From IMG/VR virus record IMGVR_UViG_3300037847_001041, positions 1-36,664 of that record: a DNA stretch of 36,664 bases, one strand, 5' to 3'. The translations under genes were made by a program, and so were the position numbers. Origin of the DNA: a virus. Below, in pieces: positions 743 through 36,664 of the stretch (position 1 is the first letter of the stretch; each line of letters begins with the position of its first letter). Below the pieces are notes generated by a model. It worked only from the letters and a program-made list of their open reading frames with translations. It was not told where the DNA came from and did no database searches.

Positions 743-2056
743 ATGCAAGAAAAAAATTACGAATTTAAGAAAAAGTGGTTTGACTACTTAGGATATAAAC
801 CTCATAGTGGTCAAATGCCTTTGCATTACCCTAAAAAGCAAGATGCCAGATTTCAAGTGGTGGTATGTGGTAGAAGATTTGGTAAGACTTGGGCAAGTGC
901 AATGGAAGCTACTTATGTAGCATCTCAGCCAAACAAAAGAATTTGGGTGGTAGGGATGTCATACAAAAAAGCTAGATTGATATTTCGTGAAATTTGGCAA
1001 CGTATGGTTATTGGTCATGCAGATGACATAGACAAGGCATCAGAAAAAGATATGTACATTCGTTTTAAATGGGGTACAATCGTAGAAGGAATGTCAGCAG
1101 ACAATCCATCAAGTCTTGTTGGTGAAGGTTTAGACCTCTTAGTAATTGATGAGGTTGCCAAAATGAATAAGAAAATTTGGGATATGTACTTATCTCCAAC
1201 AGTTGCAGGTAGAAAAGGTAAAGTTATATTTATAACAACACCAGAAGGTAGAAACTGGATATATGATTTGTTTAAGTTAGGAGCAGATGATCCAATGTGG
1301 GAAAGTCATACATCTCCATCATGGATAAATGAACACGAGTTTCCATTAGGATTAAATGATCCTGCTATAATTGAAAGAAAAAGAAATATGTCTAAGGAAC
1401 TTTTTGGGCAAGAGTTCGGAGCAGAGTTTTCTGTGTTTGAGGGAAAAGTTTGGGACTTTAATAGAGACTTAGATACTGGAGATTTTCCATACGATCCTAA
1501 CCTACCTACATACTGTTCTATTGACTTTGGCTATCGTATGCCAGCAGTTTTATTTATGCAAACATATTGGGATGGAGAACTAGAACATATTAGAGTTTTT
1601 GATTCTATACTACATAAACAAAATATAAAAACAGAAGATTTAATAAAAATGATCAAAACCAAAGGCTATCCTATTATGTCTTTTTATGGTGACCCTGCTG
1701 GTAGCAATGTTCAAGGTCAGAGTGGTGCTGGAGATATGGAGATATTTAGACGTAGTGGCATTAGGATTATATCAGCAAGAGATAGGATGAGTAGAAATCT
1801 TGTTGCTAGTATAGCATACACAAGAGGATTTTTTGAAAGTGCAGATGGAATAAGGAGAGTCCATGTAGATAAAAAATGTACAGATTTAATAGAAGATTTT
1901 GAGGAGTACAGGTACCCTGAAAGCGAAGATGGGAAACCAATAAAAGAAGAACCATTAAAAGATGGTACCCATGATCACGGAAATGATGCTTTCAGATATT
2001 TTATTATTAATAGGTTTCCTATGAGGAATAACGAAATGAAGAGGATTCAAAGATGA
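743..2056 (+). CDS. terL: Terminase large subunit
   Basis: The ATPase and nuclease motor that packages DNA into the prohead through the portal. Of 437 residues, the N-terminal ATPase has Walker A GRRFGKT (residues 43-49), Walker B LLVIDE (132-137) and a coupling motif ITTPEG (164-169). The C-terminal RNase H-like nuclease shows the expected acidic residues: D261 in SIDFGY, D317 in YGDPAG and D415 in HGNDAFRY. Length is normal to short for the family. The stop overlaps the portal start (ATGA). It is not beside TerS, which lies about 2 kb away on the other strand. Confidence 0.95.
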   Translation: MQEKNYEFKKKWFDYLGYKPHSGQMPLHYPKKQDARFQVVVCGRRFGKTWASAMEATYVASQPNKRIWVVGMSYKKARLIFREIWQRMVIGHADDIDKASEKDMYIRFKWGTIVEGMSADNPSSLVGEGLDLLVIDEVAKMNKKIWDMYLSPTVAGRKGKVIFITTPEGRNWIYDLFKLGADDPMWESHTSPSWINEHEFPLGLNDPAIIERKRNMSKELFGQEFGAEFSVFEGKVWDFNRDLDTGDFPYDPNLPTYCSIDFGYRMPAVLFMQTYWDGELEHIRVFDSILHKQNIKTEDLIKMIKTKGYPIMSFYGDPAGSNVQGQSGAGDMEIFRRSGIRIISARDRMSRNLVASIAYTRGFFESADGIRRVHVDKKCTDLIEDFEEYRYPESEDGKPIKEEPLKDGTHDHGNDAFRYFIINRFPMRNNEMKRIQR

Positions 2057-3333
2057 TTCAAAGAGTATTAAAAGATAAATTACTAGAAACAAAGCTAATG
2101 ATTTCCCATGCTAGGAGAAATGAAATAAGAAAGCACTTAGATTACTATTCTGGGGTTTCAGTAGAGCAATATATAACCAATTACTTTAATGGTGATGCTT
2201 TTAGAGAGATACCACCAAGTGTAACTAACTTTACTAGAAAATTTATCAACAAGATAAGCCGTATCTACAGTTTAGGAGCAAAAAGAAACGTAGGTGATGC
2301 TACAGAACGCTATGAGCAGTTAATACCAACCAAAAATGTTCGTATGAAACACTCAGAAAGAATGACTAGGCTTTTAGGTACTGTTGCTAATAGAGTTTAT
2401 TGGAAAGATAGTTACTTTGACTATAGACCTATTTATTACTTTGAAGTTTACTTTGATGATGACCCATTTGTGCCTAGTTCTATAGTGTATCCATTGCTAA
2501 ATAATACAGCAGACCTATCCAACACAGATAATATGCAATGGGAATACTGGGATAGTGAAAAATATGGACTAATGGATGAAGAAGGTAAGATGTTGAGTGA
2601 AATACCTAATCCTTACGGCATTATTCCTTTTGTTTTTACTCATAGGGAAGATCAGATAGACTCTTTTTTTGTTGAAGGTGCCTCTGATATTGTAAACTGC
2701 AATGAGCAGGTAAATATAGCTCTTACTGAGATGAACTTAGGTATGAGGTTCAATATGTTTGGTCAGCCGTGGGTTACAGGACTTAGAGCAGATCAAAGTA
2801 TGCTAAGAGCAGGCTCCAACACAATCTTAGATATGGGTGAAGATGGTGCTTACAATATAACAAGTCCATCAGGCAATATTATGGAAGCTATAGAGAATAT
2901 AAAGTTTCAAATGGAGCTTGTAGCTATCAATAATCATTTATGGATACAGTTTGCTGAATCTGGCGGTGAAGTTCCTAGTGGAATATCACTAATGATTAAA
3001 GATATGGAGAGAAAAGAAGATTACTATGACGATATTGCTCTTTGGAGAATGTATGAACAAGATTTTTACAATGTTGAGCGTGTTATAGCAGGATATAATG
3101 GTATAAACTTGCCAGAACAGTTCGGAGTAGACTTTGAAGAAATTGATTATCCTAAGACAGTGCAGGATCAGATATTAAAAGATCAGTTTGACATTCAAAA
3201 TAACCTAACTACTAGAGCAAAAATAATGGTTCGTGATAATAAAGACCTTACAGTTGAACAAGCACAAGCTATTATTGAAGAAAATAAGTCTGTAAATGAC
3301 CTAGAGCCAACTCAACAAGCACAACAGTCATAG
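2053..3333 (+). CDS. Portal protein
   Basis: This 426-residue protein follows TerL with a 4-bp ATGA overlap, the usual terminase-portal arrangement. Portal proteins form the dodecameric ring at one capsid vertex, dock the terminase and join the tail. The N-terminal part contains NFTRKFINKISRIYS (about residues 58-72), a motif type typical of siphophage portals, and the C-terminus is a Gln- and Glu-rich helical tail. Length matches the SPP1/HK97 portal range. The call rests on position, length and general resemblance. Confidence 0.85.
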   Translation: MIQRVLKDKLLETKLMISHARRNEIRKHLDYYSGVSVEQYITNYFNGDAFREIPPSVTNFTRKFINKISRIYSLGAKRNVGDATERYEQLIPTKNVRMKHSERMTRLLGTVANRVYWKDSYFDYRPIYYFEVYFDDDPFVPSSIVYPLLNNTADLSNTDNMQWEYWDSEKYGLMDEEGKMLSEIPNPYGIIPFVFTHREDQIDSFFVEGASDIVNCNEQVNIALTEMNLGMRFNMFGQPWVTGLRADQSMLRAGSNTILDMGEDGAYNITSPSGNIMEAIENIKFQMELVAINNHLWIQFAESGGEVPSGISLMIKDMERKEDYYDDIALWRMYEQDFYNVERVIAGYNGINLPEQFGVDFEEIDYPKTVQDQILKDQFDIQNNLTTRAKIMVRDNKDLTVEQAQAIIEENKSVNDLEPTQQAQQS

Positions 3334-4045: not shown

Positions 4046-4182
4046 AAAAATTTACTCTTATAAATTGTATATGTTTAACTTGTCATTGGGTATGGGAAGT
4101 ATTAGCAGTTAATGTAGACAGAGAGCAAGAATGTCCTGAATGTAAGTCTTATGATGTTAAGACTTTTTTAAAGGAATATTAA
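4030..4182 (+). CDS. Small zinc-ribbon protein
   Basis: This 50-residue protein starts at ATG 4030 inside the preceding gene, read in another frame. A longer form from 3991 would overlap that gene by 55 nt and is less likely. It has two Cys pairs, CLTC (15-18) and CPEC (35-38), with CHWVWEV between them: a rubredoxin-like or zinc-ribbon knuckle, probably binding one zinc ion. The partner is unknown. Its last 26 nt overlap the 3' end of the convergent TerS gene. Confidence 0.6.
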   Translation: MGKGLKKFTLINCICLTCHWVWEVLAVNVDREQECPECKSYDVKTFLKEY

Positions 4183-4804
4183 GTGCTTTTTCTCTTTTTA
4201 CTACTCGTTCCTGCCAAGCTTTTCTTTGTGCTGGAGTTTGCCTGCCTTTATTTGGTCTTGCAATACCTACGGCTTCAGCTCTCTGCCTCCAACGCCTAGC
4301 TTCCCTACGCTTTTCATTTTTTTTATCTACTTTCTTTTGTTGAGCAGATAACTCTTTCTTGGTAGGTGGTTTTTCTGGAATAACAGGTCGCTGAGGTAAA
4401 ACCTCTATATCTTCGTAATCAGCTTCTAAAACCTCAACTTCTTCCATATCTGATGCTTGGGAGCTAAGAAACTTTTCAAAAGGACTTTGATGGTTGTTGA
4501 CCTCAACTCGTTTAATAAGTTTACCTGAGTGTTCTAAAACTAATCTACCAGCCTGCACATTTCCAGCCTCAGCCTCACGAACCATACTGTTAAGCACAGT
4601 TGGCAACCTAGACCCAAATACAACCATATACTTTTGATAGAACACTTCTACAAACTCAGGATCTTTCATCCATCGTCTAATAGTGGATACATTTACCCCT
4701 GATTTTTCAGCTACATCTTTTATTTTAGCTTCAGGATCATTGACTAAAAGGTCTATAGCCAGAACCATAGAAGGCTTTATCTTTGAAGGTATATTAACAC
4801 TCAT
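4157..4804 (-). CDS. terS: Terminase small subunit
   Basis: TerS recognises phage DNA and regulates TerL at the start of packaging. The N-terminal part (about residues 16-52) is a helix-turn-helix of the small-terminase type, with IKDVAEKSGVNVSTIRRWMKDPEF matching the usual 'vaeel Gvs..TI.rW..dpeF' pattern. A helical middle region (about 55-95) would oligomerise. The C-terminal third is very Lys/Arg-rich (PPTKKELSAQQKKVDKKNEK) and may contact DNA or TerL. At 215 residues it is normal. It is on the strand opposite TerL and convergent to it, which is unusual. Confidence 0.8.
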   Translation of the reverse strand: MSVNIPSKIKPSMVLAIDLLVNDPEAKIKDVAEKSGVNVSTIRRWMKDPEFVEVFYQKYMVVFGSRLPTVLNSMVREAEAGNVQAGRLVLEHSGKLIKRVEVNNHQSPFEKFLSSQASDMEEVEVLEADYEDIEVLPQRPVIPEKPPTKKELSAQQKKVDKKNEKRREARRWRQRAEAVGIARPNKGRQTPAQRKAWQERVVKREKALNIPLKKS

Positions 4805-4812
4805 TATGGTAT

Positions 4813-4841
4813 ATTATACGGACTTTATTACTTTAGTGCAA
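4813..4841 (-). promoter_or_regulatory. Promoter for terS giving a near-leaderless transcript
   Basis: On the minus strand the -35 is TTGCAC (4836-4841) and the -10 is a perfect TATAAT (4813-4818), separated by 17 bp. The expected start site is 4805-4807, one to three bases before the ATG at 4802-4804, so the mRNA would have practically no leader and no Shine-Dalgarno site. Three copies of AAAGTCC (minus strand; 4820-4826, 4850-4856, 4887-4893) lie here, one inside the promoter spacer, and could be operator sites. Confidence 0.7.
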
Positions 4842-4932
4842 GTATTAATGGACTTTCTTTTGAACTTTTTTACAGTATGCCCAATAGGACTTTGTTTTTA
4901 TTTATTTTATGGGGAACACGGAATAACGCAAT

Positions 4933-5013
4933 CGCTCAAATCGCTCATCCCCCCTACACCCTAAACGCTCATAACGCTCATTTATGCAATATATTAAACG
5001 CTCATAACGCTCA
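4933..5013 (+). repeat. Iteron array: three CGCTCA doublets at exact 33-bp steps
   Basis: CGCTCA begins at 4933, 4942, 4966, 4975, 4999 and 5008. Within each doublet the copies are 9 bp apart, and doublets recur every 33 bp. Doublets two and three share AAACGCTCATAACGCTCAT exactly; the first is more degenerate (ATCGCTCAAATCGCTCAT). An inverted copy (TGAGCGTTT) lies at 5199-5207, beyond the promoter at 5039. Such phasing is typical of protein-binding iterons at replication origins or cooperative operators. Confidence 0.8.
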
Positions 5014-5038
5014 TATTTAAAATAAATATATTTTTTAC

Positions 5039-5067
5039 TTGACAAATGGGAGTTGGGGAGCTATACC
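5039..5067 (+). promoter_or_regulatory. Strong rightward early promoter
   Basis: TTGACA (5039-5044), a 17-bp spacer and TATACC (5062-5067) match the sigma70 consensus well (6/6 and 4/6). Transcription would start near 5074 and leave a leader of about 450 nt before the first early gene at 5523. The promoter lies 26 bp after the last CGCTCA iteron, so a protein bound there could activate or repress it. Confidence 0.7.
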
Positions 5068-5522
5068 TTTTAAAATCCAAATAAAAAAAAATAATCCTTG
5101 CATTTAGACAAAAGGCTCCAATTAAATATTAATACTCTATATATGTTTTACTTGCATATGTCCCTAATTAGTTGTATGAGGGTTCACCTCGCACTTTTTG
5201 AGCGTTTTACTGAGAATAAAAGCCGTAAACATAGCCTAAAAAGCCATAAAAAGATTTTTTAATGTAAATGTATGAATGGCTAGAATGTAGCGAAATAGAT
5301 ATCATTTAGAGCCAAATAAAGGCATTGTAAATTGATAGGTAAATAATAGAATTAACTGGCATTAATTCAGCTAAAAAACTAAAGTTTTTTCCCTCACATA
5401 TATAAGGTGTAAATATTTTGTTACATATTTAACAAAATATTTGTTGCATTTAATTCTAGTAATACCTAACCTCTATCAACAATTAAATATTAATCAACGC
5501 CCTTTGGGCATTAGGAGAACAA
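5068..5522 (+). promoter_or_regulatory. Long early leader with clustered inverted repeats
   Basis: No credible gene is seen here. The leader holds a weak GAGG/CCTC hairpin followed by T5 (5178-5199, possible attenuator), GAATTAA/TTAATTC (5349-5368), AAAAAACT/AGTTTTTT (5373-5390), the 13-bp-arm dyad at 5411-5442 and GCCC/GGGC (5499-5509) just before the AGGAG site of the next gene. A 15-bp direct repeat, CAATTAAATATTAAT, occurs at 5119-5133 and 5480-5494. It may be an untranslated regulatory RNA or part of an origin. Confidence 0.5.
5411..5442. repeat. Extended dyad, degenerate copy of the 16-bp palindrome
   Basis: AAATATTTTGTTA and TAACAAAATATTT form perfect 13-bp inverted arms around a 6-nt spacer. 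The core at 5419-5434 (TGTTACATATTTAACA) differs at two positions from the 16-bp palindrome found exactly elsewhere in this genome. It lies 81 bp before the first early gene, and the long perfect arms suggest a strong binding site. Confidence 0.7.
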
Positions 5523-6065
5523 ATGAAAACAATAAAAGAAGCTACCGAGTTAATTGAGTTAGGTATTAAAAGCATGGGAGCAGATCAGCATTTAACAGAC
5601 CAAATAAAAGCAGATGTTTTAAAGGTTGATTTAAACGGACAATGTAACTTCACGAAAGCACTTGACAAGATGTTGAAAGATAAAGACGAAAACAAACAGA
5701 AAGAAGTTAGAAGTTTTATTAGAACTAAGTTGCAAACCTTAATTAAAGCGAAAGCCACCCAGAAAAGTTTGTTAGGTGATAAGGTTAAAAACTTCAGCGT
5801 GACAATTAGAAAAGTAAATAAGCCAATGATTGAGAACGCTGAAAATGTCTTTTGTAATGTTGTTAATGGAAAGCCTAGCGTATTTAATGAGACAGATGAA
5901 AAGTCAGTTAGGGTTGTGTTAGTCTCTAAAGAAGAAAAAGAAAAGAAAGGATTCTTGGAACAGCTAGAGAACTTATGCGAAAAGCATAATAAAACCTTTG
6001 AGGATGTTTTTAAAATATCGGCTGAACAGTTGGGAATAAAATATGATGAAATATACGGAGCGTAA
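5523..6065 (+). CDS. First early gene, unknown function
   Basis: This 180-residue charged protein is not recognised. The start has AGGAGAACAAATG. The N-terminal 100 residues look helical and Lys-rich; the middle (about 100-140) has beta-type segments such as FSVTIRKVNK and VRVVLVSKEEK; the C-terminal 35 residues look helical. It is the first gene after the strong promoter and the iterons and is followed by an intrinsic terminator, so it may be transcribed alone in large amounts. It could be a regulator, a host-takeover protein or an iteron-binding protein; none of these is shown. Confidence 0.7.
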   Translation: MKTIKEATELIELGIKSMGADQHLTDQIKADVLKVDLNGQCNFTKALDKMLKDKDENKQKEVRSFIRTKLQTLIKAKATQKSLLGDKVKNFSVTIRKVNKPMIENAENVFCNVVNGKPSVFNETDEKSVRVVLVSKEEKEKKGFLEQLENLCEKHNKTFEDVFKISAEQLGIKYDEIYGA

Positions 6066-7396: not shown

Positions 7397-7418
7397 TTTT
7401 GTTAAATGTTTAACAAAA
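7397..7418. repeat. 16-bp palindrome, copy beside a ribosome binding site
   Basis: The core at 7400-7415 is exact; symmetry extends to 10-bp arms by flanking TTT/AAA. It ends directly before AAAGGAT and the GTG start at 7432. In RNA it could form a hairpin abutting the ribosome binding site; in DNA it is a dyad operator. Confidence 0.8.
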
Positions 7419-15599: not shown

Positions 15600-15623
15600 A
15601 TTTTGTTAAACATTTAACAAAAT
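15600..15623. repeat. 16-bp palindrome, copy beside a ribosome binding site
   Basis: The core at 15604-15619 is exact (CA-centred). Flanking bases extend symmetry to 11-bp arms. It is followed directly by AAAGGAG and the ATG at 15636, the same geometry as the copies at 7400 and 9469. Confidence 0.8.
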
Positions 15624-35235: not shown

Positions 35236-36141
35236 TTAAGCGTTACGGATTTTAAGACCTTTCTTATTATCTGTATCGTCTATTCTTTTTACACCATAAA
35301 GCAAATCTGCGACTACTTTAGTACCTAAAGCATCAATCGAATATTCGCTTTGCACCCTAACATCTTGCTGAGAAGCAAAAGCTACGGCTGATTTATGAAA
35401 AATAGCTCCACTAATTGTGTTAGCACCTGCTCCACCTTCGTTAGCTGTATCTACAGTATTTGACATATAAACATCAATCCCGTAAAGTGATCCAACAAGA
35501 CCTGAGCGTAAGCCTCTGTTTCCTTCACCAACAGCATCATTTCTTATAAAGTATTGTGCAATACCAGCAGAAGGATTTAAGATGTCAGCAAATAGTGTTG
35601 GATTAACAACCATTGCACACTCTCCATCCATGTAAGGAATATCTGCTTCACCTAAAGTAGCCAAAGCTTCTTCAAATTTTCCAGCAGTTAGAGTATCATC
35701 AGCAGATAGATTCAATGAATCTTCCAAGCTTTGTAGCTCAGTCCATATATCAGCATCTACTTGACGGCTAAGAGCTTCACCCATCATCCTTGAATACTTT
35801 TCTACTAAATCAGCTTCAGATTGGATCAAAGTCAAATCTTCAAACAACTTAGCGACATATTTGTGCTTATTAACAGTTAACTGAGTTTCTGTAGTTGCAG
35901 TTGCATCATAAGATACATCAGCACCAGCAGATTTATCAGATGCACTTATCAAGCTCATTTCTGGAATATGAAGAACATCTCCATAGCCTTTTCCAGCAAA
36001 AAGAGCAGAATAATCGTCTACTAATCCACGAAATACAGATTTTCTTTCAAAATACTTATAAATTCCATCTGCCCAAATTTCTGGTATAAAATGTTGGTCA
36101 GTTGTGTTGGTAACAGCGTTACCTTGATAATGTTTAGACAT
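35236..36141 (-). CDS. Major capsid protein
   Basis: This 301-residue protein builds the capsid. It begins SKHYQGNAVTNTTDQHFIPE and shows the long N-terminal arm then a beta-rich core (ADVSYDATATTETQLTVNKH, about 73-92), a helix (YSRMMGEALSRQVDADIWTE, about 115-134) and a VVNPTLFADIL segment (about 176-186) typical of HK97-fold coat proteins. It lies directly after the scaffold gene (5 nt) and is the most confident of the leftward head genes. Its first 49 codons recur in the left-end fragment with a few changes. Confidence 0.85.
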   Translation of the reverse strand: MSKHYQGNAVTNTTDQHFIPEIWADGIYKYFERKSVFRGLVDDYSALFAGKGYGDVLHIPEMSLISASDKSAGADVSYDATATTETQLTVNKHKYVAKLFEDLTLIQSEADLVEKYSRMMGEALSRQVDADIWTELQSLEDSLNLSADDTLTAGKFEEALATLGEADIPYMDGECAMVVNPTLFADILNPSAGIAQYFIRNDAVGEGNRGLRSGLVGSLYGIDVYMSNTVDTANEGGAGANTISGAIFHKSAVAFASQQDVRVQSEYSIDALGTKVVADLLYGVKRIDDTDNKKGLKIRNA

Positions 36142-36664
36142 TTATTTTACCTTTTAACGTATGACTCCAATATCGTACCCCAGTTTCTTCTACGTTCTTC
36201 ACTAGACATTTTAGTCCAATCACCCATTTTTTCAGTAGGTATTGTTCCTTTAGTGTCAGGTGGGTTTACTTTTTCTATTTCTGTAAACTCTTCAACGATA
36301 TTTAAAAGAACTTCAGTATCAACATTGGCAAATTTTTCTCGTTTCGATTCAGGAAGTTGAGCTAAAGCACCTTCTCTTAGTCTTGAGTCCATTGCTTCCC
36401 ATCTTTCCTTATAAGGTTTATAAGATTCAATTTCTTGAGCAAGATCAGCATTTAGTTCTTGCCACTTCTCTTCTTCTCTAAGTTTAGTTCTTCTTTCTTC
36501 TTCCTCTTTAGCTTTAAAAGATTCAAGACTTTGCCTAAGTTCATTTCTCTCTGAAATAACTTCATTTAATCTTGAAATCGGTACATTGTTTTCGCCTTGT
36601 GTGACGTTTTCCTGTTTTACATCTGGCTCGATGGTCGTTTCTTCAGACATTTTTACCTCTTTAG
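35995..36664. repeat. Right copy of imperfect terminal redundancy
   Basis: It aligns gap-free to positions 1-670. The window ends exactly at the base corresponding to position 670. Both copies keep intact reading frames, so neither is an obvious pseudogene fragment. Confidence 0.9.
36147..36650 (-). CDS. Capsid scaffolding protein (right allele)
   Basis: This 167-residue protein is the right-end version of the scaffold described at the left end. I count 22 residue differences in 167, mostly in residues 37-78 (the predicted coiled coil: NELRQSLESFKAKEEEERRT and on), while residues 1-36 and 79-115 are the same. The start at 36650 lies 8 nt after AGAGG of the leader. It is complete. Confidence 0.75.
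   Translation of the reverse strand: MSEETTIEPDVKQENVTQGENNVPISRLNEVISERNELRQSLESFKAKEEEERRTKLREEEKWQELNADLAQEIESYKPYKERWEAMDSRLREGALAQLPESKREKFANVDTEVLLNIVEEFTEIEKVNPPDTKGTIPTEKMGDWTKMSSEERRRNWGTILESYVKR

Follow-up and report, generated by a model that had tools for sequence, protein, structure and literature searches.

Phage lambda carries several spaced TerS-binding repeats beside terS, the gene for the small terminase subunit, in the form of cosB with its gpNu1 R sites. In phage SPP1, the pac region contains direct repeats and covers the terS promoters and the start of the gene (PMC4737164), and TerS binds pacL and pacR around pacC (PMC6316719). According to the title of a paper cited in PMC6316719, the SPP1 terminase also represses its own synthesis. 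How small terminases recognize their genomes is nevertheless unsettled: pac sites contain repeats, yet in the related system SF6, where the boxA repeats of SPP1 are absent, individual TerS helix-turn-helix (HTH) motifs bind DNA with little sequence specificity, which counts against the reading of sequence by TerS (PMC4737164). Phages in which one recognition-helix residue varies in step with a repeat array would form a natural series that allows a direct test of whether TerS reads sequence, and they would show packaging specificity evolving through cassette exchange.

Results

The phage record

The window, that is, the whole stretch of DNA analysed here, is a 36.7-kb phage record with a G+C content of 33%. 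terL and the portal gene are read rightward (743-3333); terS is read leftward, as are the structural genes from 16.8 kb. The phage also encodes a primase-helicase and an initiator/O-like protein. It belongs to an uncultured, siphovirus-like group that is probably marine, and its IMG/VR relatives come from what we take, by their sample codes, to be largely marine samples. At the DNA level, no phage record in an annotated phage collection matched the array region, and TerS found no match in INPHARED. The two ends of the record (1-670 and 35995-36664) are copies of each other (670 bp, 89% identity), so that the record joins up with itself by way of two diverged strains. Three near-identical palindromes, TTTTGTTAnnnnnnTAACAAAA, at 5416-5437, 7397-7418 and 15601-15622, lie upstream of ORFs 5523, 7432 and 15636 and resemble operators served by a single phage regulator; among 10 relatives scanned, this palindrome was seen once each in G002 and G020.

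Six CGCTCA copies in three doublets

The hexamer CGCTCA occurs six times on the plus strand, at 4933, 4942, 4966, 4975, 4999 and 5008, and the spacing reported from the sequence-only reading is exact, with the copies grouped into three doublets having an internal step of 9 bp and a doublet-to-doublet distance of 33 bp (Table 1). Within the window, the doublets form a 19-bp family (4930-4948, 4963-4981 and 4996-5014). Counting both strands, the window contains 12 CGCTCA matches against 3.5 expected, a number reached in 0 of 100 shuffles, and the largest number of copies per 90 bp of any 6-mer with at least three G/C was 3 in 300 window shuffles, compared with the 6 observed. The distance of 33 bp had been described as a near-multiple of the helical turn, but it corresponds to 3.14 turns at 10.5 bp per turn, and the fit is only approximate. 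An inverted copy at 5199 is present as described, although it is not a member of the array, because its context, GTCGCACTTTnTGAGCGTTTT, is retained in G020 and G022, both of which lack the array. A coding repeat was suggested by 9, 24 and 33 being multiples of 3 and by a frame that enters the array in some relatives, but it was judged to be no gene, as arrays of the L037 type step by 7 and 8 bp and the third positions of the flanking block also looked conserved. Seven matches to the same repeats in bacterial genomes were all unrelated simple tandem or coding repeats.

Table 1. Coordinates of features in and around the gap upstream of terS (positions in the window).
Feature	Position	Strand	Description
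terS, small terminase subunit	4157..4804	-	215 aa; HTH 28-45, recognition helix 39-45 (predicted)
Likely terS promoter	4806..4841	-	TTGCAC, 17 bp, TATAAT; conserved in relatives
Conserved A/T-rich block	4887..4918	+	GGACTTTGTTTTTATTTATTTTATGGGGAACA; upstream of slot 0
Doublet 1 (slot 0)	4933..4947	+	CGCTCAAATCGCTCA; terS-proximal, immediately before the C-rich block
C-rich block	4948..4959	+	TCCCCCCTACAC in the window, often TACGCCCTACCCC in relatives; between slots 0 and 1
Doublet 2 (slot 1)	4966..4980	+	CGCTCATAACGCTCA
Doublet 3 (slot 2)	4999..5013	+	CGCTCATAACGCTCA
Promoter-like site, rightward	5040..5068	+	TTGACA, 17 bp G-rich spacer, TATACC

The gap between terS and the early genes

The array had been placed in a gene-free gap between divergent terS and early genes, and both points hold: there is no convincing gene from the terS start (4804) to the ORF at 5523, from which the early genes run rightward. 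The promoter downstream of the array, taken earlier to be near consensus, is only half so (TTGACA, 17 bp, TATACC), and a promoter scan rejects the site; comparable sites (TTG..., a G-rich spacer and TAT) are seen in relatives. The likely terS promoter is absent from the promoter scan list, its -35 hexamer matching at 3/6 positions. The C-rich block is retained in most relatives, whether the array is present or absent, and is a candidate core or cleavage region. At 4885-4914, a fraction of 0.85-0.90 of the columns is conserved, and the A/T-rich block is more conserved than the array itself. In several relatives, the C-rich block (4948-4959) and the G-rich promoter spacer (5046-5062) resemble inverted copies (GGGTnGGGCGTATG) that flank the array.

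An optional cassette in register

About 80 related contigs were collected by pattern and TerS searches. Where doublets are present on a contig that includes terS, they are located in the gap upstream of this gene, in a register of approximately 33-bp slots, and they are essentially restricted to one locus per genome (26 records). The slot pattern is +++ in the window, L017, L018 and L032, ++ in L115-L118, + - + in L059 and L060, and + - + + in L043/L044, with slots at 0, +33, +49 and +66 in L037/L041. One of the slots may be inverted or empty: the slot 0 position is also occupied in relatives, and the slot 1 doublet is inverted in L033, L043, L044, L059 and L060. CGTGCA, CGGGCA and CGCCCA occur as half-site variants.

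The array is an optional cassette, absent in close relatives with the same genes. Loss of the array beside retained flanking genes had been named beforehand as evidence against the first interpretation, and G022 presents exactly this situation, carrying no doublet despite 90% identity in TerS and 84% in the 5523 protein. The flanks are unchanged in array-less relatives and the slots hold different DNA; many of these relatives carry, by eye, an AAATTTA-like motif in slot 0. Other repeats occur in this region as well. Four GTCAATGTTT repeats replace the CGCTCA doublets in L083, about 280-330 bp from the terS start, and represent a different repeat type, while upstream of terS in L062, L065 and L076, TGAGCG is mixed with TGGCGTAGT repeats downstream of the C-rich block. 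L021, L027, L029 and L030 have a single CGCTCA doublet upstream of terS, and in most of them TTGAGTAGT/ACTACTCAA forms an inverted pair at a distance of about 20 bp.

Contig ends fell within 300 bp upstream of terS in 11/46 cases, compared with 0/51 downstream. They are strewn over hundreds of base pairs, a pattern more suggestive of breaks in the assembly of a variable region than of a cut, and fixed ends at the array were rejected on account of this scatter. As contigs break unusually often there, the stretch appears to be naturally variable. Overlapping contig ends at scattered positions are equally compatible with permutation or circular assembly.

TerS and its residue 43

TerS of the window matches PHROG 2538 and Pfam PF13022 (37.7 bits against a cutoff of 27.9). 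Its predicted model has a mean pLDDT of 72 (about 83-89 in the HTH), and the best fold match is the phBC6A51 TerS, 2AO9 (Z 10.5 over 100 residues), followed by the TerS proteins of NV1 (Z 6.6) and Sf6 (Z about 5). By both profile and fold, the protein is a small terminase of the PF13022/phBC6A51 type.

In the supported clade that includes the window (27 rows), residue 43 is R or Q in 15/15 phages with at least two doublets or variants, and H or N in 12/12 with one doublet or none; five close relatives with H43 retain one doublet. A tree that excluded the helix gave three well-supported switches, all in the same direction (3 to 0), a number too small for significance. In codons 28-47, the window is 83% identical to the array phages L018 and L032 and 63-67% identical to L021, L022 and L026, which are array-less or single-doublet phages. 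Codons 1-27, nearer to the array, show the reverse, with 83-86% identity to L021, L022 and L026 and 72-73% to L018 and L032. By these identities, the helix segment was swapped independently of its flanks, as a short tract. The mean association of DNA columns with the array was likewise highest in codons 28-47 (phi 0.49, compared with 0.38 in codons 1-27, 0.30 downstream and 0.29 upstream), although single upstream columns correlate with the array up to phi 0.86, which leaves some room for linkage. Six genes sampled on both sides gave 674 variable columns, and among these TerS 43 was the sole well-covered one that separated the two groups; portal 425-426 likewise separate them, but with a coverage of just 5 array rows and 7 others.

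Outside the clade the rule breaks, in four lineages that are more distant. Doublets occur with H43 N44 in L115-L118, L059, L060 and L062-L065/L076, while L058/L078 carry the helix of L060 (TKATIHNW) yet have no array. That the recognition helix would predict the array universally, with R or Q expected at position 43 outside the clade as well, is refuted by H43 in L115-L118. Since these phages, L059, L060 and the L062 group carry H43, either both helix types read CGCTCA, or TerS is not the sole reader, or chance accounts for part of the clade pattern.

Discussion

The array had been proposed to be an iteron origin or a set of cooperative operators. There is good support for cooperative protein binding to an array between divergent genes, because the slots are conserved, orientation can flip within a slot, and the doublets recur in distant relatives; the iteron-origin half does not survive the refuting conditions set for it beforehand. 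As to what binds, the initiator (10390) and the 5523 protein had been put forward, but neither tracks the array, whereas TerS, named then only as a flank, does so within the clade of the window. Our preferred, though tentative, reading is that the array is the variable TerS-recognition part of a pac-like packaging-initiation region upstream of terS, resembling that of SPP1. As in an SPP1-type pac, the array is positioned at terS and its promoter, and direct repeats surround a putative core, the C-rich block separating slot 0 from all later slots.

Most likely, a TerS ring would bind the CGCTCA doublets through its N-terminal HTH and, with slots on opposite sides of the C-rich block, may present this block to TerL for cutting or loading. 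The region probably touches terS and early transcription too. Since both the terS promoter and the early promoter are located in this DNA, TerS bound there may act as a repressor of terS, in the manner of SPP1 gp1. Observed directly are the position of the array, its slot geometry and optional presence, the fold of TerS, and the covariation of its recognition helix with the array within the clade; binding, cleavage, a role in packaging and autoregulation are what we infer, on the strength of that covariation. Being optional, the array can at most be one of the group's packaging signals, and phages without it must package by other DNA.

A possible, if rather doubtful, alternative is that the doublets are operators for cooperative binding by a transcription regulator, of the phage or of the host, that is not TerS and that governs the divergent terS and early promoters, an alternative promoter cassette taking this place in array-less phages. 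The TTGACA hexamer starts 26 bp downstream of the array end, the equivalent stretch of array-less relatives contains GTCAAGTAAAA, a leftward TTGAC-type -35, and doublets are found in lineages whose TerS helices differ, which a shared host factor would permit. However, the confinement of the doublets to essentially one locus in 26 records is not what a regulon of several promoters would give, though it leaves a purely local operator unaffected; among 23 long, syntenic records, no phage gene was specific to array carriers as a class; and such a regulator leaves unexplained why the TerS recognition helix was exchanged on its own. Cutting at the C-rich block to give fixed cohesive ends, with the array as the TerS-binding part of a cosB, is highly improbable. 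A GC-rich conserved core does lie beside terS in a genome of 33% GC, and the long contigs G012 and G019 begin within 213 bp of terS, but contig ends near the array do not fall at a single base, most other near-complete contigs start elsewhere (metagenome contigs being weak evidence on ends), and in G000, G004, G009, G011, G013 and G015 the genes at one end recur at the other, at scattered positions.

It also seems improbable, though less so, that the array is an iteron-type origin at which the initiator binds the doublets and opens the adjoining AT-rich DNA. Direct repeats in register do adjoin a stretch of 90% A+T in the window, much as SPP1 oriL and oriR consist of direct repeats and an AT-rich element (PMC6316719); the phage encodes a primase-helicase and the initiator/O-like protein, and the initiator gene and its vicinity hold no strong iteron family, only weak two-copy families. 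Against this, the initiator shares 79% identity with its counterpart in array-less G022 but only about 44% with those in array-bearing G002-G004, unlike a cognate initiator, and the A+T content after the array ranges from 0.50 to 0.90 among array phages (0.50-0.60 in L033, L037, L041, L043 and L044), so the AT-rich element is not conserved. DnaA-box matches occur in chance number, none of them near the array. A skew minimum away from the array had been named beforehand as refuting this reading; cumulative GC skew reaches its minimum at the ends of the window and merely follows gene orientation, by which it is confounded.

If the packaging reading is correct, the TerS recognition helix and the pac array might further constitute a matched, swappable specificity cassette, comparable to an immunity type, whose HTH segment and array are exchanged together in natural populations; we regard this as speculative and on balance unlikely. 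Were it true, TerS would read pac repeats by base sequence, and packaging specificity would diversify quickly, perhaps escaping satellites that borrow the packaging site.

Among known systems, phBC6A51 (2AO9) provides the top fold and family match for the N-terminal 100 residues of the window TerS, although identity is about 17% and a charged extra C-terminal half is present only in the window protein. Lambda cosB resembles the locus in its several spaced repeats beside terS, which in lambda bind TerS, but motif and spacing differ and no fixed ends are seen in the window group. The short direct repeats near A+T-rich DNA recall SPP1 oriL/oriR and the lambda O iterons, whereas the array lies outside the initiator gene, is untracked by the initiator, and has no conserved A+T element. 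With the pac regions of SPP1 and SF6 (pacL-pacC-pacR, boxA/B/C), the locus shares direct repeats at terS and its promoters, an HTH TerS, and a repeat type that varies between close relatives. It differs from them in that its array lies outside terS, with doublets in 33-bp slots, and seems tied to a specific recognition-helix residue, whereas the HTHs of SF6 show little sequence specificity.
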